Shown one piece after another: positions 1 to 35,194 of a stretch of 64,000 bases of DNA. The position numbers were made by a program, and so were the translations under genes. The notes below the pieces were generated by a model, which was given only the letters and a program-made list of their open reading frames with translations, had not been told where the DNA came from and made no database searches. The stretch is from contig JANYHM010000098.1 in the NCBI GenBank assembly GCA_025359065.1, positions 1 through 64,000 of the forward strand. Reading direction: 5' to 3'. This DNA is from Synechococcales cyanobacterium GL140_1_metabinner_5_sub. Its GTDB lineage: Bacteria; Cyanobacteriota; Cyanobacteriia; Cyanobacteriales; Chamaesiphonaceae. The number at the start of each line of letters is the position of its first letter. Position 1 is the stretch's first letter.

Positions 1-87
1 GCTTATGAACAAATTTCTACTCAAGATATTCGCAGTTGGTTCACACATGATTGCTACGGTCATGACTCTATGGAGCTTACTGTATAA
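1..87 (+). mobile_element. 3' end of an IS630-type transposase gene (cut by window edge)
   Basis: The frame is open from base 1 to a TAA at 85-87 and gives 28 residues. The pattern AYEQIS...DIRSWFTH followed by a Cys is the kind of ending seen in IS630-family DDE transposases of cyanobacteria. The usual Cys-rich ending is altered (HDCYGH), so this copy may be decayed. Everything upstream is outside the window, so completeness cannot be judged. The assignment rests on this short tail only. Confidence 0.45.
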
Positions 88-197
88 AAATTACCTGCTT
101 TATTCATTTAATGGACTTCATTCGAGCTGAAACCGCTATAAGCTTCATATCATCATATCTAAAATGTTAAGGATTCAGGTCTGAGGAGGAATAAGAG

Positions 198-353
198 TCA
201 ACTCAGTAGGATCGATTTAATAATTGCTTTGAGCCTTGCTACTTCTTCAAATAATTGCTGTGTTGCTTCTTGCTGATGCAGTATAGTCTCCACCAAAAGT
301 GCTGGAGCCATTTTCTCTAGGATAGGTCTCTCAAATTGCTGCGGTTGTTTCAT
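198..353 (-). CDS. small hypothetical ORF, 51 aa, coiled-coil-like
   Basis: An ATG at 353 opens a 51-residue frame ending at a TGA at 198-200. The product is Gln/Glu-rich and looks helical throughout (ILEKM, VETILHQQEATQQLFEEVARLK), as expected for a short coiled coil. No family is recognised. It lies between a transposase remnant and a kinase-like gene, so it may be an accessory or leftover ORF of a mobile element. Coding status is uncertain because the frame is short and no clear ribosome binding site is seen. Confidence 0.25.
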   Translation of the reverse strand: MKQPQQFERPILEKMAPALLVETILHQQEATQQLFEEVARLKAIIKSILLS

Positions 354-540
354 ATCAACACCCAAGCCTATTTTGTCTTTTTGTCAACCCCTGACCTGAA
401 TTCTTACGCAGCATTTTTAAAATCAGTGCCATATTGTCACTCCAAATATGTTTATATAAGTAGATTTTCCCAGGGCATTATTTGAGGCGATGTAATGTAC
501 AATGTTACAAAGCAATCTCCAGAAAAATGAGAAAGTGGCT

Positions 541-2715
541 ATGAGTCTCTGCATCAACCCCCAATGTCTTCAGCCCCAAAACTCCGAGCAGGTATTATTC
601 TGCGCAAGCTGTGGCTCCGAAATGCTCTTGGATGGTAAGTATCAGGCCGTCAGATTAATAAGTAGCAAAGGAGCCTTTGATGATACCTATGAAATCACTA
701 AACGGGGGGTTTCTAAGGTTTTGAAAGTGCTAAAAAGCGACAGTGAAAAAGCAAATAAACTATTTGATCAAGAATTCAAGGCATTGAAAAATCTCATTAG
801 CCAAAATGTTGCCGGAATTCCTCAAGTCAAAGATTTATTTCTATATTCACCTTTTGATTCCCAGCAAACTTTACGTTGTTTGGTCGTGGAAAAGATTCAT
901 GGCCTGAATCTGGAAGAATATTTAACAGCTAAAAGACAGCCAATTAACGAAAAAATGGCAATCAATTGGATGTCTCAGTTGACGAATATCTTAAAACAAG
1001 TGCATAGTCAGGGCGTATTACATCGCGGTATCCAACCATCAAATATAGTATTACAGCCGGATGGGCAGCTAGTACTGACCGATTTTGGTGCTGCCACTGC
1101 AACTGCGGTGAATAATCTGGAACAAAATCTTCAAATACAGATACCGGGCTACATAGCACCTGAACAATACCAAACAGGTGAATCCTCGCGCAAGTCAGAT
1201 TTCTTTTCATTGGGGCGAACCTTTGTGTATTTGCTAACAGCAGTACACCCAATGAGCTTTTATCACTCCTACAGAGATGCTTTGCAATGGCGCAGTAAAA
1301 ATGAAAGTATCTCCGCCGATTTTTTGGATTTAATTGATCGATTGATGGAAGAAGATCCTGAACAGCGCCCTGAAGATGCCCTGGATATTATCACCGCCAT
1401 CACCGATTTGGTAGATCCCGCTGATGATAGCTTTTTTCTCAACCCTTTACCTCCAGAGGAACCTGCTTCAAATCTTACTGAAAGTCCCTACACTTTTGAA
1501 GTGGAAATAGAACCGACTTTTCAGCCAGGGTCAGCTACCAGAACACCAACAGACTCTACTTTTCAACCATTATCAATTACTCAAACACCAACAGAATCTG
1601 CTTTTCAACCATTATCAATCACCCAAACACCCTCGTTTCCAACTTTCCAGCCTTTAACAAATTTACCAAATATCGAAATCATACCCACTGAAGAACCTAG
1701 AATGGGTTCTATGCTGAGTAACAAATGGATTATTCCACCGCTAGCCATGGTATCTACCTTAGCTTTCTTATTCGCCTTGGTAGGGCTACAAATTTGGCCT
1801 AATAAGCCAGAGCGGTTTGCCGACATTAAAAATGTTCCCAGTGGTGACTTTAAGGTGGGGGGCAGTACAACTTGGGCCACTACTCGTCAAGAACAGGCTT
1901 CGCTAGATGATGCAATTAATAAATCCTTTAATAAATTCAATGTAGGATATGTCGATAGTAATATTCCATCGGCTCAAAATCAAAAATGCGACAATAAGCC
2001 AGGATCCAATACTGGTATCTGCTGGTTGATTGAAGGAGACCTGGATTTCGCTCAATCTTCTGTGCCTTTGGCACAGTCTAAATATGCTGGTGTTGCTCAA
2101 AAGCACCACCTCGAAGAAGAAGCAGTGGCCTATGATGCCTTAAGTATCGTTGTTAATCCTGAGCTAAATATTAGTAATTTGACGGTGGCACAACTGCGAG
2201 ATATCTATTCTGGCAAAATAACTAACTGGAAAGAAGTTGGCGGCCAGAACATACCGATCGAAGCTTTTACCCGCGAGGAAAGTGTTTCTGGTTCAGCTTC
2301 TGTCTTTAAAAACTTAGTGTTGCAAGGAGAGCCGATCGGTTCACAAATCTCTTTAGTAAACAATCTCAGTCAAGGCTTAAATAACGTTAAAAATAGTAAG
2401 GGTGGCATTTATTATGGTGCGGCCAAGGAAGTCATGGTAGATTTTTGTGGTGTTAAACCATTGGCAATCAATTCAGTAAAACCATATTTAGAGCCATTAA
2501 AAACTCCTGACACTTGCGGTGCTTTGAGTCGCAATGAGATCAACAAAGATGCTATTAGAAATCAAAAGTATCCCCTGACCCGCAAAATCTACGTGGTTAC
2601 TAAAGCAGATGGAACTTTACGACAGCAAGCTGGTGAGGCTTACACTAAATTACTACTAACCAAACAAGGGCAAGAAATCTTAGAAAAAGCTGGATTCGCT
2701 GGTATCAACAAGTGA
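541..2715 (+). CDS. zinc-ribbon / degenerate Ser-Thr kinase / TM / PstS-like phosphate-binding receptor
   Basis: The Met at 541 is preferred because it begins the four-Cys zinc ribbon (C4, C9, C21, C24) that opens many cyanobacterial Ser/Thr kinases; an upstream ATG at 502 adds 13 residues. Numbered from 541, a kinase fold spans about 35-290, a Pro/Thr-rich linker with a 16-residue repeat about 325-375, one membrane span about 396-419, and a PstS-like PBP domain about 435-724 (FKVGGSTTW, YDALSIVVNP, LRDIYSGKITNW). The order puts the kinase in the cytoplasm and the ligand domain outside. In the kinase, the glycine-rich loop is degraded (SSKGAFDD) and the catalytic HRD is HRG (161-163), while the ATP-site Lys, DFG and APE motifs remain, so it is probably a pseudokinase. 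A role in phosphate sensing is inferred from the PBP fold. Confidence 0.85.
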   Translation: MSLCINPQCLQPQNSEQVLFCASCGSEMLLDGKYQAVRLISSKGAFDDTYEITKRGVSKVLKVLKSDSEKANKLFDQEFKALKNLISQNVAGIPQVKDLFLYSPFDSQQTLRCLVVEKIHGLNLEEYLTAKRQPINEKMAINWMSQLTNILKQVHSQGVLHRGIQPSNIVLQPDGQLVLTDFGAATATAVNNLEQNLQIQIPGYIAPEQYQTGESSRKSDFFSLGRTFVYLLTAVHPMSFYHSYRDALQWRSKNESISADFLDLIDRLMEEDPEQRPEDALDIITAITDLVDPADDSFFLNPLPPEEPASNLTESPYTFEVEIEPTFQPGSATRTPTDSTFQPLSITQTPTESAFQPLSITQTPSFPTFQPLTNLPNIEIIPTEEPRMGSMLSNKWIIPPLAMVSTLAFLFALVGLQIWPNKPERFADIKNVPSGDFKVGGSTTWATTRQEQASLDDAINKSFNKFNVGYVDSNIPSAQNQKCDNKPGSNTGICWLIEGDLDFAQSSVPLAQSKYAGVAQKHHLEEEAVAYDALSIVVNPELNISNLTVAQLRDIYSGKITNWKEVGGQNIPIEAFTREESVSGSASVFKNLVLQGEPIGSQISLVNNLSQGLNNVKNSKGGIYYGAAKEVMVDFCGVKPLAINSVKPYLEPLKTPDTCGALSRNEINKDAIRNQKYPLTRKIYVVTKADGTLRQQAGEAYTKLLLTKQGQEILEKAGFAGINK

Positions 2716-4679: not shown

Positions 4680-5057
4680 TTGTATTACTATCCTACCGAT
4701 CCGCCATACTTCTTACTGGTAGTCGGTTTGTTCATGGGCATAAGCTGCGGCGCAGCCTTCGATGCCACTCTTAAAACCAACGTCAAAGCTTGGTCTGCCG
4801 ATCGAGCTAATATCCGCTTGGCCAACTCGGGTAAACTCCCTCTCCAGATTCCTTTTGTGGGTATTGCTGCTGGGGTGGGAATGTTTCTTACTTCGGGACT
4901 GTCTATTTTTGGCTTTCCAGATATCTTAGCCGCCGGATTGGCGATTCCAATGACCCTACTGACCACTCTGTTTTTGTGGATTCAGCTCAAGGGTGTATTT
5001 AAAGAACTCGATCAGGGTGGCTCTGCGGCACTTGATTTGGATTCTTGGGGAGAGTAG
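4680..5057 (+). CDS. conserved hypothetical membrane protein, 125 aa
   Basis: The TTG at 4680 is chosen because AGGAG (4669-4673) lies six bases before it; the frame is open from a GTG at 4647, and the first ATG is at 4734. The product has two or three hydrophobic stretches (about residues 10-26, 60-80 and 85-105) and a short acidic C-terminus (LDLDSWGE), so it is likely an inner or thylakoid membrane protein. No catalytic motif is visible and the family is not recognised. It converges with the secreted-protein gene on the other strand, with a six-base gap. Confidence 0.6.
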   Translation: MYYYPTDPPYFLLVVGLFMGISCGAAFDATLKTNVKAWSADRANIRLANSGKLPLQIPFVGIAAGVGMFLTSGLSIFGFPDILAAGLAIPMTLLTTLFLWIQLKGVFKELDQGGSAALDLDSWGE

Positions 5058-5063
5058 CCTAGT

Positions 5064-5648
5064 TCAATGCGGGGTTTGTGGCAGTTCGAGATCTGCTGTG
5101 CTGCTCGATCGATCATAGATCCCGCGCCTACGTTGGTTTTCAGCATACAGCTTTTCGAGACAGGTCACATTGGCATCATTAGGAAGGATTACTTCTAGGC
5201 TTTCAACGGCAGTACGATTATCTTGGCAATTTATACAAGGCTCTTCAAAATACCCCACCATTTGAGAACGAGCCAAGGCAAGCTGATTTCTCTTGAAGAA
5301 AACAATGATTTGCTGATTCTTTGTCCAGTTGGCAACACCATAGTCCCCAACTTTAATCAGGTCAGTGATTTTCCCATGTGGATTGGGGCTTTCTGTACCA
5401 CCACTTAACTTTCTTAGATTGCTAGGTCTACTGAGTTGATAGTAGTACCTATTGAGTTGTTTGTAGATGCGATGCTTCGGTGAAATCAATGCTTTGTTCA
5501 ACGACAGACAGCTATTGTTTGTCGTTGAACCAATTCTGCTATGTGGATACGATGTGAACGCCAGTGTTTTGCTGGTGGAAACGACACACAGCAACAAAAT
5601 AATGGTGGGTAAAACCGATCGAACCCATTGGGCAGGGTGTAAAGACAT
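5064..5648 (-). CDS. hypothetical secreted protein, 194 aa
   Basis: The N-terminus has a positively charged start and a hydrophobic core (VLPTIILLLCVVST) followed by a plausible cleavage site after TLA, so export is likely. The mature part is rich in Asn, Ser and Tyr and has a CINC pair plus two more Cys, which could form disulphides outside the cytoplasm. No known domain is recognised. Another minus-strand open frame lies upstream without a start. Function unknown. Confidence 0.55.
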   Translation of the reverse strand: MSLHPAQWVRSVLPTIILLLCVVSTSKTLAFTSYPHSRIGSTTNNSCLSLNKALISPKHRIYKQLNRYYYQLSRPSNLRKLSGGTESPNPHGKITDLIKVGDYGVANWTKNQQIIVFFKRNQLALARSQMVGYFEEPCINCQDNRTAVESLEVILPNDANVTCLEKLYAENQRRRGIYDRSSSTADLELPQTPH

Positions 5649-5768
5649 TATATTAGTCCAAGAAAATATCTACTTCTCGGTGGTGCTTCGTACTCGACGC
5701 TGCTACTGCCATGAATTCTGGCTCATTGAAATAATAGCGTCCGTCAGCTCTTTCAGGGTAACACTTCT

Positions 5769-5895
5769 TTAAGGAGGCTTAGGGCTGAGGCTGAGCCAAG
5801 TTCTTGCGGGTTTGAAGGCCAGTTTAACAACTCCAGTGGGGCTGTTGCGATGCTTGGTAATTAAGATTTCAGTGATGTCTTGATGTGATCCAGCG
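5769..5895 (-). pseudogene. remnant of the 3' end of a replicative helicase gene (DnaB-like)
   Basis: Ahead of the stop at 5769-5771 the minus strand reads ITEILITKHRNSPTGVVKLAF. This matches the universally conserved DnaB C-terminal motif (EIIVAKHRNGPTGTVKL.F), where Arg and Gly residues contact ATP across the hexamer interface. The rest of the roughly 450-residue protein is absent: upstream DNA (5900-6328) shows no related frame. The Gly of RNGPTG is Ser here. It is therefore a decayed fragment, perhaps left by a plasmid, phage or rearrangement. Confidence 0.55.
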
Positions 5896-6328
5896 ATCGA
5901 CCTTAGGAGTAGTATTTGAGGCAGATTGCGTCTTAAGCTTGCTCTAGTAGCTACTTTGACGGGTTTTAAATTATATTAAGATAGGTGGACAAATTCGGCA
6001 AGTCCACTTTCAATAGAATGATAGGCAGAAAATGTCTGTCTAATTATTGGTATACCAAGCCTGAAAAGTCCGTTGAGGTTGTCTGTTTCAGTTCGAGATT
6101 TAGCAAGCTGAAATAGTTGGATTCTTTGTTAAGTTTCGAGAAGTTGTTGGCGATCACAAAGATAGGAAATTGATAAGTGATTGGGGCGTAACAAATCGTT
6201 GGAGCGGACAGAATCATGATATTTTTAATGACAAGCGAAAGATAGCGATCTCGCTCAACTCCAAACTGTTAGGTTCAAAGAGTTGAAAATCCGTCGATTA
6301 TATAAGATTATTTCAAGGAATAATAATT
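5896..6328. other. non-coding stretch upstream of the peroxidase gene
   Basis: No convincing frame is seen on either strand. It contains a small hairpin (GTGGAC 5985-5990 with GTCCAC 6002-6007) and, just before the peroxidase start, an AAGGAA ribosome binding site at 6315-6320. The peroxidase promoter should lie in its right half. Confidence 0.4.
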
Positions 6329-30526: not shown

Positions 30527-30660
30527 GTTTGGGAGTGGCAAGTTAGGGCAAGATCTGGAATTTTGGTATTCAAATTAACCAAACCCTAACCTAATCATTA
30601 CGTTTTCTTCATGATTAGTCTCTAAGCTAAGAAGCGATGTCTCCGAGTCTGTAGGTACTT

Positions 30661-31308
30661 ATGTTACAAATCTTAGACCGTCCCAGCTCAAATGCCATGC
30701 CCCGAGCAACTATTTCTTTAGAAGAAATATACAAGCAAAAGACTGTGCTGATTTACCATAAAGGTAAAAGTATTCCCATGCTCGATCGGGATATTTTCTT
30801 TGTGCAGCAAGGCATTGTGCAGTTATCTAGCTTCGATTCCGAGGGTAATGATATCTTGCTAGGCATCATTTCTCCTTTCATGCCTTTTGGACTACCGCTT
30901 ACTTCAGTGGAGCCATATCATGGAGTTGCTCTATCTAATGTCAGTTTGATTCGGTTTAGCGTTGCTGAAGTCGAGCAGTACTTCGACCTGAGCCGCCTAG
31001 TAATGCGTGGGTTAGATATGCGTCTTCAGCAATCTGAAGCGATTCACTCTATTTTGTGCAGTCGGCATATCAGCGAAAAGCTATATCGTTTCTTAGAGTT
31101 GCTCTGTAAAGAAATTGGTGAGCCAGTCGCTGATGGCACCAGATTAAAAGTCCGGTTCACTCACCAGCATTTGGCTAGTACTATTGGAACTACAAGAGTT
31201 ACAATTACTCGGATGCTACAAAAATTTCAGCAAAATGGCACGATTATGCTTGACGAAAAGCGACACATTATAATGAATTCGTCTAGAAAGTTTAGCCTTA
31301 ACCATTAA
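30661..31308 (+). CDS. Crp/Fnr-family transcriptional regulator
   Basis: The first 120 residues form a cNMP-type sensor jelly roll (FVQQGIVQLSSFDSEGNDILLGI). A winged helix-turn-helix follows at about 160-195 with FTHQHLASTIGTTRVTITRMLQKF. That recognition helix is close to NtcA's GSTRVTVTR, but the sensor part does not carry the Crp cAMP-binding Arg/Glu signature clearly. It is 215 residues, normal size. Its 3' end overlaps a Pho box for the next gene. Whether it controls phosphate genes is not shown by sequence. Confidence 0.88.
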   Translation: MLQILDRPSSNAMPRATISLEEIYKQKTVLIYHKGKSIPMLDRDIFFVQQGIVQLSSFDSEGNDILLGIISPFMPFGLPLTSVEPYHGVALSNVSLIRFSVAEVEQYFDLSRLVMRGLDMRLQQSEAIHSILCSRHISEKLYRFLELLCKEIGEPVADGTRLKVRFTHQHLASTIGTTRVTITRMLQKFQQNGTIMLDEKRHIIMNSSRKFSLNH

Positions 31309-31337
31309 TTAACTTTTAACTAACTTAAGCTTAATTA
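31297..31337 (+). promoter_or_regulatory. Pho box: four octamers at 11-nt period
   Basis: Octamers at 31297 (CTTAACCA), 31308 (ATTAACTT), 31319 (ACTAACTT) and 31330 (CTTAATTA) are each exactly 11 bases apart. Each resembles yTTAAyyw, the cyanobacterial SphR/PhoB half-site with 3-base spacers. It begins inside the end of the Crp-family gene and points at the PstS gene. Confidence 0.7.
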
Positions 31338-31419
31338 TTACTTTAGAGCAATTTAATCTTGGTGGATGAATATAAGGCGTGAGCGTGAATTCACACCAAG
31401 ATTAAAAACTACCAAAGCA

Positions 31420-32436
31420 ATGTTCTCAGCTAAAAAAAGATTCCACATCATCTCTACACTATTGGCCGGCAGCACCATTGTTGCATCTGGGCTGTTGGTA
31501 TCTCCAGTAGCTACTAACTCACAGGGTTCGACAACCATTAAAATTGATGGCTCTAGTACTGTGTTTCCTATTGCAGAAGTTGCTGCGGAAGAGTTCCAAA
31601 AAAGCAAGGCTGGAGCAATAAAAGTAACTGTTGGTGTTTCGGGAACCGGCGGCGGATTCAAGAAATTCTGTAGTGGTCAAACTGATATATCTAATGCCTC
31701 TCGCCCAATTTCGAGTAAGGAAATTGATGCTTGTCGCGCGAAAGGGATCAGATTTATTGAATTGCCGATTGCCTATGATGCTTTGACTGTGGTGGTAAAC
31801 CCAGAAAACACCTGGGCAAATACTATGTCGGTTGAGCAGTTGAAAAAGATTTGGGAACCCGGCGCTCAGGGTAAAATTACCAATTGGAACCAGATTAACT
31901 CTCGCTTCCCCAACCAGCCCCTAAAGTTGTTTGGCCCTGGTCAAGCTTCGGGTACTTTTGACTACTTTACAGAAGCAATCAATGGCAAGGCCAAAGCCAC
32001 TCGTACTGACTTTACAGCCAGTGAAGATGACAACGTGTTGGTGAACGGAGTAAGCAAAGATAAAGGTGGCCTAGGCTACTTTGGCATGGCTTACTACGAA
32101 GCCAATAAGTCTAAGCTAAAGGCAATTAAGGTTGGTGGAGTAGCGCCTTCAGTGGAGACGGTTAAGAATGGAAAATACACTCCTCTTTCTCGTCCTCTGT
32201 TTATCTACGTTAATGCAACTGTTGCAGCCAAGCCTCAAATCAAAGAATTTGTAAGCTTCTTCTTGAAGAATGCTGGTCAGTTTGCCACTCAAACTAGATA
32301 TGTTTCATTGCCAGATGCTGCTTACACCACAGCGACTAAGCATTTTGATAACAAACGTACTGGTTCAGTCTTTAATGGTAAAGAAGCAATTGGCTTCACC
32401 ATTGAAGAGTTAATGGCTCGTGATGCTCAAGATTAA
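31420..32436 (+). CDS. sphX: PstS/SphX-type phosphate-binding protein
   Basis: The protein captures phosphate in the periplasm. It has a signal peptide ([23 protein letters not shown]) followed by GSSTVFPI, then [22 protein letters not shown] and [13 protein letters not shown], which build the phosphate pocket. Length is about 338 residues from 31420; an ATG at 31366 adds 18 residues but has its SD too close. The Pho box lies about 80 bases upstream. No pstC, pstA or pstB gene follows, so this is a lone binding protein as with cyanobacterial SphX; the symbol is by resemblance. Confidence 0.9.
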
Positions 32437-32457
32437 TTAATTGCTTTTTTTACTGCT

Positions 32458-32488
32458 AAATTGTCCAAGTACATCTTGGGCAATTTTT
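32458..32488 (+). terminator. terminator of the PstS gene
   Basis: AAATTGTCCAAG (32458-32469) pairs with CTTGGGCAATTT (32475-32486, one G-U), followed by TT. It lies 21 bases after the stop and is preceded by a T run. Confidence 0.75.
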
Positions 32489-32605
32489 AGTACATATTGT
32501 TTAATCATATTATTGAAGCTGGCCAAGATTGCTAGCTAATATCTAGGGCAGTAAACTCTGAGTTAAGCCATTTATTAAATCTTCAAGTAGGAGGTAATAT
32601 AATAA

Positions 32606-32665
32606 ATGAGAATGCTTGAGCTTTTTCAAGTAGCTTGTAAAGTTATGAACATCAATATTCTGTGA
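32606..32665 (+). CDS. 19-codon leader ORF upstream of the lipoprotein gene
   Basis: AGGAGG (32589-32594) is a perfect Shine-Dalgarno 11 bases before an ATG at 32606. The frame reads MRMLELFQVACKVMNINIL and stops at TGA 32663-32665. The TGA is part of TGAGGAA, which serves as the SD of the lipoprotein gene (start 32679). The arrangement fits translational coupling or a regulatory uORF. The peptide has no recognised function. Confidence 0.45.
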   Translation: MRMLELFQVACKVMNINIL

Positions 32666-32678
32666 GGAATGAATTTTT

Positions 32679-33320
32679 ATGGAACGTCGGAAAAATGTGA
32701 TCTGGGCAAATGTCTTAGTGGGTGGGCTGCTGTTAGCAACATTAAGTGCTTGTAACAACGATGAACCTGCAGCAACGGGTACTCCGGCTCCTGTTGCTGC
32801 GGCACCAGATGCCGCACCGATCGCTGGTGCCACACCAGCACCTTCTACTAGTGCTGGATCATCTCCAGCAGACACCAAAGAAAAAGACAAACCTAAAGAT
32901 AGTGGCTCTACAGCTTCTGCACCAAAGCCATTAGCAGCTACTAAGCCTTTAGTAGCAGGAGAAATTAAGCCAGATAAACCTTTGCCTGAAAAAGATATAG
33001 AGGCTAAAGCACCAGAGAAACCCAAACCAGTACAAGGTGGCTTGTCAGAAAGCAATGTAAAGGCAATGAAGACCATGCTTGATGATGCCAAGAAAGATGC
33101 TGATGCTGGAAAACTTGATGAAGCTATTGGTAAATATAATGAATTTCCAGATGGTCCATGGAAAGAAGCGGCAGGTGAACTAAAAACTAAAGCGGCAGAC
33201 AAACATACTGCGATCGAAGCAGCCATCAAAGCTGCTGATGAAGCAGCTAAATCCAAAGACAAAGCAAAATTCACTAAAGCCCTAACTGATTTGTTAGCAG
33301 CGGTTGAAAAAGCTAAGTAG
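32679..33320 (+). CDS. low-complexity lipoprotein, 213 aa
   Basis: A lipobox LSAC puts the modified Cys at residue 25. The next 75 residues are Ala/Pro/Thr/Ser-rich spacer, and then Lys/Glu/Asp-rich segments lead to a C-terminal half rich in helical KADEAAKSKDKAK repeats. No domain is recognised. It is probably membrane-anchored outside the cytoplasm. The SD GAGGA is at 32664-32668. A bidirectional terminator follows the stop. Confidence 0.7.
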   Translation: MERRKNVIWANVLVGGLLLATLSACNNDEPAATGTPAPVAAAPDAAPIAGATPAPSTSAGSSPADTKEKDKPKDSGSTASAPKPLAATKPLVAGEIKPDKPLPEKDIEAKAPEKPKPVQGGLSESNVKAMKTMLDDAKKDADAGKLDEAIGKYNEFPDGPWKEAAGELKTKAADKHTAIEAAIKAADEAAKSKDKAKFTKALTDLLAAVEKAK

Positions 33321-33328
33321 TAATTAAC

Positions 33329-33366
33329 AAAAAAAGAGGGGGAAGTTAATTTCCCCCTCTTTTTTT
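33329..33366. terminator. bidirectional terminator
   Basis: GAGGGGGAA / TTCCCCCTC (33336-33344, 33351-33359) has A7 on the left and T7 on the right. It ends both the lipoprotein gene and the convergent membrane-protein gene. Confidence 0.9.
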
Positions 33367-33379
33367 ATCTTACTGAAAA

Positions 33380-35035
33380 CTATGTGACAAGAATATTTCG
33401 CTGTGATTTCTTGTGATCACTCTCAGGAGCATTTTGCTCAACATAGTCTCCAGTAGCCGGGTCTAGTTTTAAGAAAGAGGTATGCCCTTCTTCATCGTCA
33501 TCATTATTGAAGAACTCAATTTCTTCTTCTTCTGGAGCTTCTGGTTCCAGCATTTCTTGAACCACAACTTTTGGTGCAGTTTCCTCTAACTTATACCAAC
33601 CATACCAATTCATCACCACCAACCACATTACCGATAACAGCGCCGCCAAACTTAAGATCGATCCTTGATAAGTGGTAAGCATGGCCAACACTGGTAAAAT
33701 CATGCCCGCGATCGTGCAAATCACTGCGGCCAAAGAAGTCCGGAAATTTTTACCCAGACCCCAAGCACTAGCTATCAGCAAAATAGCAATTACTGGCCAC
33801 ACGATTTCTGGAGTGGCATAGACTGCGGTGATTTCGGTTTTAAATAACCGCATCACGTATGCCAGGGTCAAAATGCTAGTAACTGCAACTCCAGCACTAA
33901 TTAAAATATCTTTGATGCGCATAGGCACCGAAAGATACAGCATTACTAACCACCACAACCAAATGGCCGGGGCAAACAATATAACCTTGGGGATGACTCC
34001 CACTTGAGGCAGTAAAGAATTAGGTGCAGAAGCACCGATCGGGTAAGGGATAGCCGCATTATCTGGCAAAACCCAGGTGAAAGTTTTACCTGGCTTACGT
34101 TTTTCGATACTGCTGGGCATTAGACCGCTGGCAGAATTGATGTTGCTGAAATTAGTCTCGATCGCCAATTGAAACTTGGAAAGCAGCTCGCCTTTGGTAG
34201 CATACAACCAGCGCGGTGCGCCCTGGGCCTGATAAGAAGTTTTTAACTGAGTCGTCCCATTCGGCGCAATTTGAATTCGATATTCATATTCTCCAGCACT
34301 GTTAGACGAAATTCTGCGACCATCTTGCTCTACCGAATACCCTTGAACAATGTATGCTCCTTTAGGTGGAGCCATATTCAGCAGAAAATCTACCGAGCCT
34401 GGGGTAATGTTTCGTACTTCGTATTCACCCAGAAAACTTGTGGTGTATACCCACTTCTCGGCACTGCGCACTTTGCTCTTGTTGATATTCACCTTGATAT
34501 TGGAGCTATTTACAGGCAGCAGCCGAGTAACATCTTTTTCATCGCGGATTTTGGTGACTTTGCCATTGACATTTTCGCTGTAATTATAAGGTTCCTTGAC
34601 GGTGTAACGAATCTGAGGAGAGATTTGCTCAATTTGTTTTGCCGTAGCTGCGGCACGAGGAAATGCGCTTTGCTCCCAGATATGATAGCGGTTTGCCACC
34701 GTTGAACAAATTAATGCACCAATAATTAAAATGGCAAATACAACTGCTACATGCCGCAAAGAACGAATCAAATCGCTATAGCGAACTATCCAATCACCCA
34801 TTGCAACCATAGAAGATTCTTGCTGGGGTTTGATCGAAAAGTTGATGAGTGCGAGAGCAATACCTAAGCCGATCAAGATCGCGCAAAATACGATGATCCC
34901 TAGCGGCGCTCCGTTGATAATTAGGCTCAACCGATCGGGCTGAGTAACATCAGGGATTTCGGGGATGCCGTTAACAGCGTTTACAGCCAAAATGGGAAAG
35001 GGCATAAATCCACCCAAACAATCTAAAATTGACAT
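33380..35035 (-). CDS. conserved multi-pass membrane protein with large extracytoplasmic loop, unknown function
   Basis: The 551 residues have two membrane helices near 45-65 and 90-112, a soluble middle of about 230 residues (113-345) with beta-rich character, then about six membrane helices (346-500). A cytoplasmic acidic tail (EEEEIEFFNNDDDEEG) closes it. No enzyme or transporter motif is recognised. It is transcribed leftward toward a shared terminator with the lipoprotein gene. A sensor, channel or envelope role is possible, and none is supported. Confidence 0.65.
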   Translation of the reverse strand: MSILDCLGGFMPFPILAVNAVNGIPEIPDVTQPDRLSLIINGAPLGIIVFCAILIGLGIALALINFSIKPQQESSMVAMGDWIVRYSDLIRSLRHVAVVFAILIIGALICSTVANRYHIWEQSAFPRAAATAKQIEQISPQIRYTVKEPYNYSENVNGKVTKIRDEKDVTRLLPVNSSNIKVNINKSKVRSAEKWVYTTSFLGEYEVRNITPGSVDFLLNMAPPKGAYIVQGYSVEQDGRRISSNSAGEYEYRIQIAPNGTTQLKTSYQAQGAPRWLYATKGELLSKFQLAIETNFSNINSASGLMPSSIEKRKPGKTFTWVLPDNAAIPYPIGASAPNSLLPQVGVIPKVILFAPAIWLWWLVMLYLSVPMRIKDILISAGVAVTSILTLAYVMRLFKTEITAVYATPEIVWPVIAILLIASAWGLGKNFRTSLAAVICTIAGMILPVLAMLTTYQGSILSLAALLSVMWLVVMNWYGWYKLEETAPKVVVQEMLEPEAPEEEEIEFFNNDDDEEGHTSFLKLDPATGDYVEQNAPESDHKKSQRNILVT

Positions 35036-35194
35036 GAATTATGTAATCGGATCGATTCAGTCGCGAAAGCTAACCGGATAATACTCTCACTATTAAGTTA
35101 AGAAAAGGTAAAAATTTGGTTAATTCTTTTGTTGACTTTCATGCAGGCTTATTAAACCTAGTTCAGTCGCATCAAAAGCCTCACTTTAAGGCTG
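35036..35194. other. upstream region of the 551-aa membrane protein gene
   Basis: No gene is seen. The minus-strand promoter of the membrane-protein gene should be here. AT-rich DNA follows up to the inverted-repeat element at 35195. Confidence 0.35.

Follow-up and report, generated by a model that had tools for sequence, protein, structure and literature searches.

To our knowledge, the signals sensed by bacterial Ser/Thr kinases are mostly unknown. A prefix with four cysteines (4-Cys) is typical of the Ser/Thr kinases of cyanobacteria. A survey from 2007 listed 14 types of accessory domain on cyanobacterial kinases, and PBP_like_2/PstS was not among them (PMC2176072). Of the bacterial pseudokinases, the CP1 family, which is common in cyanobacteria and associated with a COG3899 domain, has no transmembrane (TM) segments, and none of the families described in the accessible part of that study carries a PBP ectodomain (PMC12599244). 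Our literature search, which had partial coverage, returned no description of a pseudokinase with such an ectodomain. In EFR–BAK1, a kinase-dead receptor kinase allosterically activates its co-receptor (PMC11259431). Streptomyces CisA is bitopic, has a substrate-binding-like extracytoplasmic domain and is needed for firing of the injection system (PMC12237407).

The window, that is the whole stretch of 64,000 nucleotides that was analysed, encodes a real and unusual receptor, which is a variant of the transmembrane Hanks-type kinases (Table 1). The initial annotation had described a pseudokinase joined across the membrane to a PstS-like domain, and this domain order and both folds were confirmed with Pfam, NCBIfam, AlphaFold2 and VIA-align. 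The start codon is the ATG at 541, and the N-terminus MSLCINPQC is common to all five orthologues, including the window protein; a second in-frame ATG is found upstream at 502. The protein matched NF045510 (NCBIfam 4-Cys prefix) with E = 4.7e-10 and 39.5 bits (cut-off 24), and residues 44–278 matched Pfam Pkinase with E = 2.2e-28 and 99.8 bits (cut-off 31.7). An HMM check of the C-terminal domain against PF12849 (PBP_like_2), which had been proposed at the outset, gave a match over residues 486–691 (E = 7.4e-22, 78.8 bits) above the gathering score of 27. The AlphaFold2 model, made with a 45-sequence alignment, has a mean pLDDT of 82 and contains two confident domains with a disordered linker between them, at about residues 303–399 of the model. 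VIA-align placed residues 26–291 on PknB 2fum (Z 26.6, rmsd 2.1 Å over 241 residues) and residues 435–723 on phosphate-bound PstS 4gd5 (Z 26.4, rmsd 2.6 Å over 242 residues), in a match list that is occupied by these two folds only and in which the absence of other folds carries no meaning.

Table 1. Features of the receptor gene and its product, in window coordinates
Feature	Position	Strand	Basis
Receptor-like gene, 724 aa: 4-Cys prefix, kinase-fold domain, linker, TM, PstS-like domain	541..2715	+	
4-Cys prefix, residues 3-27 (C4, C9, C21, C24)	547..621	+	NF045510 match; four Cys kept in orthologues
Kinase-fold domain, residues 30-290	628..1410	+	Pfam Pkinase; PknB structural match
Degraded glycine loop SKGAFDD, residues 42-48 (KGGFGD in HRD orthologues)	664..684	+	G45A, G47D in alignment
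Beta3 Lys62, retained	724..726	+	94% conserved in 135 other cyanobacterial kinases
Catalytic loop HRGIQPSN (D163G, K165Q)	1021..1044	+	Orthologue alignment
DFG (D181), retained	1081..1089	+	Orthologue alignment
APE, retained	1156..1164	+	
Low-complexity, predicted disordered linker, about residues 291-396	1411..1728	+	pLDDT mostly 30-50
Predicted transmembrane segment, about residues 397-416	1729..1788	+	Hydropathy maximum at residue 397; low-confidence helix 403-416
PstS-like PBP_like_2 ectodomain, residues 424-724	1810..2712	+	PF12849; 4gd5 structural match
GGSTTW, counterpart of first PstS anion-binding loop	1858..1875	+	Alignment with the genome's own PstS
GSNTG, counterpart of second anion-binding loop (SGTG in own PstS)	2002..2016	+	Same alignment
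SSV at the position of the S-R pair of PstS, Arg replaced in clade	2056..2064	+	Same alignment
R578...SGS585 (R-x4-SGS), counterpart of R...SGT loop	2272..2295	+	Same alignment

HRG in place of HRD and an altered glycine loop, with DFG, the ATP-site Lys and APE still present, are all in the sequence as first annotated. The HRG at 1021–1029 has the codon GGT where the HRD orthologues have GAT and the orthologue in G005 has AAT. A kinase is classed as a pseudokinase when the beta3 Lys, the HRD Asp or the DFG Asp is lost, as defined in PMC12599244, and the window protein belongs to this class, with the HRD Asp gone and the other two residues present. A comparison with the three HRD orthologues and with 135 further kinase domains from cyanobacteria gave 64 strongly conserved positions, of which 57 are unchanged in the window protein. 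Of the seven that differ, two are in the glycine loop (G45A, G47D), two in the catalytic loop (D163G, K165Q) and one in the activation segment (T197L); the remaining two are changes of Leu to Met. The four prefix Cys, Lys62, Glu78, His161, Asn168, Asp181, Glu208, Asp220 and Arg276 are kept. The changes are not significantly concentrated in the active site (4/21 versus 3/43 positions, p = 0.2 in a simple test). With Lys62 and DFG retained, ATP binding and weak catalysis may be possible. In Calothrix and relatives, a 4-Cys kinase group with HLR, HSR or HLQ for HRD forms another lineage without the Asp (L148–L152, L154, L156, L161).

The proposed search for genomes with the same domain order found four full-length orthologues, which all belong to the sister genus within the GTDB family of the source organism. 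The name Chamaesiphon is attached to three of their four contigs, with C. polymorphus CCALA 037 and two MAGs of Chamaesiphon among the orthologues; identity is 51–53% and the domain order is the same throughout. The sequences in G009, G004 and G003 have HRDIKPSN and KGGFGD, and that of G005, a Chamaesiphon MAG, has HRNIKPPN and KGGLGD. The HRG form was found in one species only, and the other genome of the source genus has no orthologue. For the kinase part, dS is saturated when the window is compared with its orthologues, and we therefore give pN and pS, which are 0.26–0.28 and 0.78–0.84 for the kinase part and 0.27–0.28 and 0.65–0.73 for the PBP part. As pN is far below pS in both domains, the gene is constrained and not decaying. 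Trees of the kinase part and of the PBP part share one topology, and therefore the fusion was inherited vertically. The window sequence is the longest branch of the orthologue tree (0.53 in the kinase tree and 0.52 in the PBP tree). Judged from these comparisons, the window kinase domain is a maintained, recently degenerated kinase. Across the five sequences, the Asp may have been lost twice, or lost once and then regained.

The outer part had been said to look like a phosphate-binding protein. This is borne out by PF12849 and by the PstS fold, but the score against TIGR02136, the PstS subfamily, was 123.4 bits, under the curated cut-off of 206.6. The genome's own PstS, encoded at 31366–32436, scored 321 bits. 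The Arg after the SS motif is Val or Ile in the window clade and is kept in the own PstS and in sister stand-alone proteins (SR, SSR). A small anion is a plausible ligand for the predicted binding domain. Two extra cysteines, C483 and C494, are located near the second loop in all five orthologues and are absent from the other aligned sequences; they would suit an oxidising, extracytoplasmic setting.

The suggestion that the receptor gene lies near many Pho-regulated genes was not supported. The nearest Pho-type genes (pstS) are 29 kb away, and no site resembling CTTAACCT-N3-CTTAACCT, counted as Pho-box-like at 12 or more of 16 matches, was found 5' of the receptor gene in window 1–560. The neighbour comparison showed no gene common to the window and the orthologue loci. 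A Pho-operon context is not supported, given this distance, the lack of a Pho box and the unshared neighbours, and a conserved neighbourhood, considered as a clue to function, was also set aside. Elsewhere in the window, the region 30574–35106 has Pho-box-like direct repeats at 30574, 31297 and 35095, amid which lie genes for a PtrA/NtcA-like regulator (30661–31308) and PstS (31366–32436) and a gene at 33380–35035.

The PBP family of the window ectodomain also occurs as stand-alone proteins of about 350 aa with an N-terminal TM segment. A 4-Cys kinase gene was found within a few genes and on the same strand in 13 of 26 loci of such membrane-anchored PBPs, a set that was not picked for kinase presence. 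In L208, which was scanned in full, a Peripla_BP_6 gene is located between the 4-Cys kinase and the anchored PBP. A LysR regulator gene is upstream of the kinase in L208 and L211, and several other loci have genes of comparable size at these places; the anchored PBP is followed by a PstS-like protein in three loci. The cluster resembles a sensory operon that has no genes for a transporter. G216 has kinase and PBP in one frame, as an independent fusion. G034 and G059 have the PBP fused to HRD kinases, independently of the window fusion, and in these and other genomes it is also fused to CHAT, caspase-like or TPR domains. The PBP module thus appears to behave like a portable sensor.

Clusters of a 4-Cys kinase and one or more anchored PBP_like_2 proteins were seen in L196, L197, L199–L201, L203, L204, L207–L209, L211, L212, L216, L217, L222 and L223. 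Fusions of the PBP to CHAT or caspase-like (Peptidase_C14) protease domains were seen in L056, L057, L060, L061, L063, L066, L073 and L074 (G034, G037, G051, G052, G059). G001, a genome of the same genus as the source, encodes a different and distant kinase–PBP fusion with HRD (L081, 1201–3225) and, 1.7 kb downstream of it, a stand-alone anchored PBP (4964–5965).

We consider it somewhat probable (about 0.55) that the window protein is a single-pass receptor in which the PstS-like ectodomain senses an anion and a kinase fold that is non-catalytic, or nearly so, switches a partner. The PstS-like domain would be in the periplasm or extracytoplasmic space and would close around a small anion, which may be phosphate or an oxyanion related to it. 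The ligand-induced change would then cross the membrane through one TM helix to the cytoplasmic 4-Cys kinase-fold domain. In the window lineage this domain would phosphorylate barely or not at all, and would keep the fold and most nucleotide-binding residues. It would most likely be an allosteric or scaffold switch acting on a partner, probably an active 4-Cys kinase of the same cell; about 25 other kinase homologues encoded in the same genome could be such partners. The ancestor of the receptor would be an active transmembrane kinase with this same layout, a form still present in Chamaesiphon (HRD in three of the four orthologues). The recurrent coupling of kinase and PBP, the joint changes in the active site and the equal purifying selection on both domains would all be consistent with this receptor model, for which GlnH–GlnX–PknG (PMC6069109) and EFR–BAK1 (PMC11259431) are precedents.

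The protein could instead be an ordinary receptor kinase that is still active through unusual catalysis, with Asp163 dispensable or another residue serving as base. Lys62, Glu78, Asn168, Asp181 and Arg276 are kept, in agreement with such activity. SpkE lacks the catalytic Asp and was at first reported to be inactive (PMC2176072), and kinase activity was later reported in work cited in PMC11863333. Loss of the Asp by itself is therefore no proof of inactivity. The Asp is also absent in 13 of 135 cyanobacterial kinase homologues outside the window clade, so its loss recurs in cyanobacterial kinases; the nearest outgroup kinases are mostly HRD. However, the glycine loop, the catalytic Lys165 and the activation-segment Thr197 are all altered too, and we regard an active kinase as unlikely. 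An error of one base in the sequence or assembly of an active kinase is hardly credible. The initial annotation had taken homologues with intact HRD as a sign of such an error, and three orthologues do have HRD, from which GAT to GGT is a single transition. The separate changes G45A, G47D, K165Q and T197L and the HRN of G005 nevertheless speak against the error reading. Sequencing error as the sole cause was rejected as unlikely, since one base is insufficient where several motifs changed, and the HRD orthologues would rather point to a lineage-specific loss.

Decay offers a different account, in which the kinase domain is a neutral relic and function is left to the anchored binding domain alone, or in which the gene as a whole is decaying. 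The loss of catalytic residues relative to the orthologues, the longest branch and the patchy presence within the family fit this account, which is nonetheless quite improbable: the frame of 724 codons is intact, pN of the kinase domain is far below pS and equal to that of the PBP domain, and most conserved structural residues are kept. Nor do we favour a membrane-tethered scavenger that feeds a transporter and has no signalling role, although the PstS fold of the ectodomain and the presence of pstS in the same genome would agree with it. Neither neighbours in common nor an obvious transporter operon were found at the window or most orthologue loci, as judged from compared neighbours that are annotated in part. 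Anchored PBPs of the same family lie near kinases in 13 of 26 loci, and the PBP also occurs in fusions with kinase, TPR, CHAT or caspase domains, as described above. This makes a scavenger very improbable.

A second, separate family has the layout 4-Cys/pseudokinase/TM/PBP, with about 700–900 aa and HGN in place of HRD, and was found in other genomes (L226–L255, L260–L299, L310–L323). At the position of the catalytic Asp, 69 of 71 distinct sequences have Asn, the other 2 have Gln and none has Asp; the DFG Asp is present in 71/71 and the beta3 Lys in 64/71. Pfam recognised the kinase part in just 21 of 48 members; profile–profile comparison with the 4-Cys kinases gave E = 9e-17, and an AlphaFold2 model of an HGN protein matched kinases and a phosphate transport receptor. 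Of 291 Cyanobacteriia genomes, 84 encode the family, and no member was found in the GTDB family of the source organism. A search of the source genome with the HGN profile gave weak partial matches only (best E = 7e-10, in the PBP part) and none of full length. Membership of the window protein in this family was rejected, as it has neither the HGN loop nor a full-length profile match.

In 11 of 14 HGN contexts examined, the locus encodes a member of a protein cluster in which the representatives that were scanned are tail-tube proteins (Phage_T4_gp19), and CIS_tube, Phage_base_V and Pvc16_N proteins occur at some loci. Within 15 kb of a sheath gene, 24 HGN genes were counted. A sheath gene is present in 70/84 genomes with HGN and in 34/207 others, kinship being ignored in this count; by genus the values are 42/46 and 12/84, with phylogeny handled to genus level only. 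No sheath gene was detected in the source genome, and the window protein was accordingly not linked to an injection system. According to a word search, the terms 'kinase' and 'phosphate' are both absent from the main text on the thylakoid-anchored injection system of Anabaena (PMC8894136). From layout and gene neighbourhood, we infer that the HGN protein might be a CisA-like trigger. A wider scheme, put forward tentatively, is that cyanobacteria repeatedly made PBP-linked kinases into dead receptors. The window protein and its Chamaesiphon relatives would then be in mid-conversion (HRD, HRN, HRG), and HGN would be the finished form and an injection-system sensor or trigger, the counterpart of CisA.

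In the window receptor, a kinase domain is joined to a ligand-binding domain whose fold is known, and the series HRD/HRN/HRG among the orthologues offers a direct test of receptor function after loss of catalysis. We know of no established firing signal for the contractile injection systems of cyanobacteria, and the HGN family is a candidate input for them.

The Chamaesiphon orthologues share the 4-Cys/kinase/TM/PBP order with the window protein over the full length, but three of them have GGFG and HRDIKPSN and one MAG has HRN with an intact glycine loop, whereas the window has HRG and GAFD. The PstS/TIGR02136 proteins (4gd5, 4q8r, 1twy, Sll0540 9l8j) have the same fold (Z about 25–26) and share three of the anion-loop motifs; the window protein differs in its score under the cut-off, its kinase tether and the replaced Arg after SS. 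PknB and StkP, as transmembrane Hanks-type kinases, likewise have a cytoplasmic kinase fold, a single TM segment and an extracytoplasmic sensor, whereas the window protein has a 4-Cys prefix, a PBP for PASTA and no catalytic Asp. In GlnH–GlnX–PknG of Actinobacteria, a solute-binding protein also informs a Ser/Thr kinase across the membrane, but this system consists of three separate proteins with an amino-acid ligand and an active kinase (PMC6069109). The bacterial pseudokinase families ActPs1-3, GLW, CP1, DYD and DLHK, as presented in PMC12599244, resemble the window protein in the Hanks-type fold and the loss of catalytic motifs. The HGN family, unlike the window protein, is comparable to CisA, with a cytoplasmic N-terminus, one TM segment, a substrate-binding-like C-terminal domain and injection-system genes nearby; the N-terminus of CisA is unstructured, whereas HGN proteins have a pseudokinase domain there (PMC12237407).
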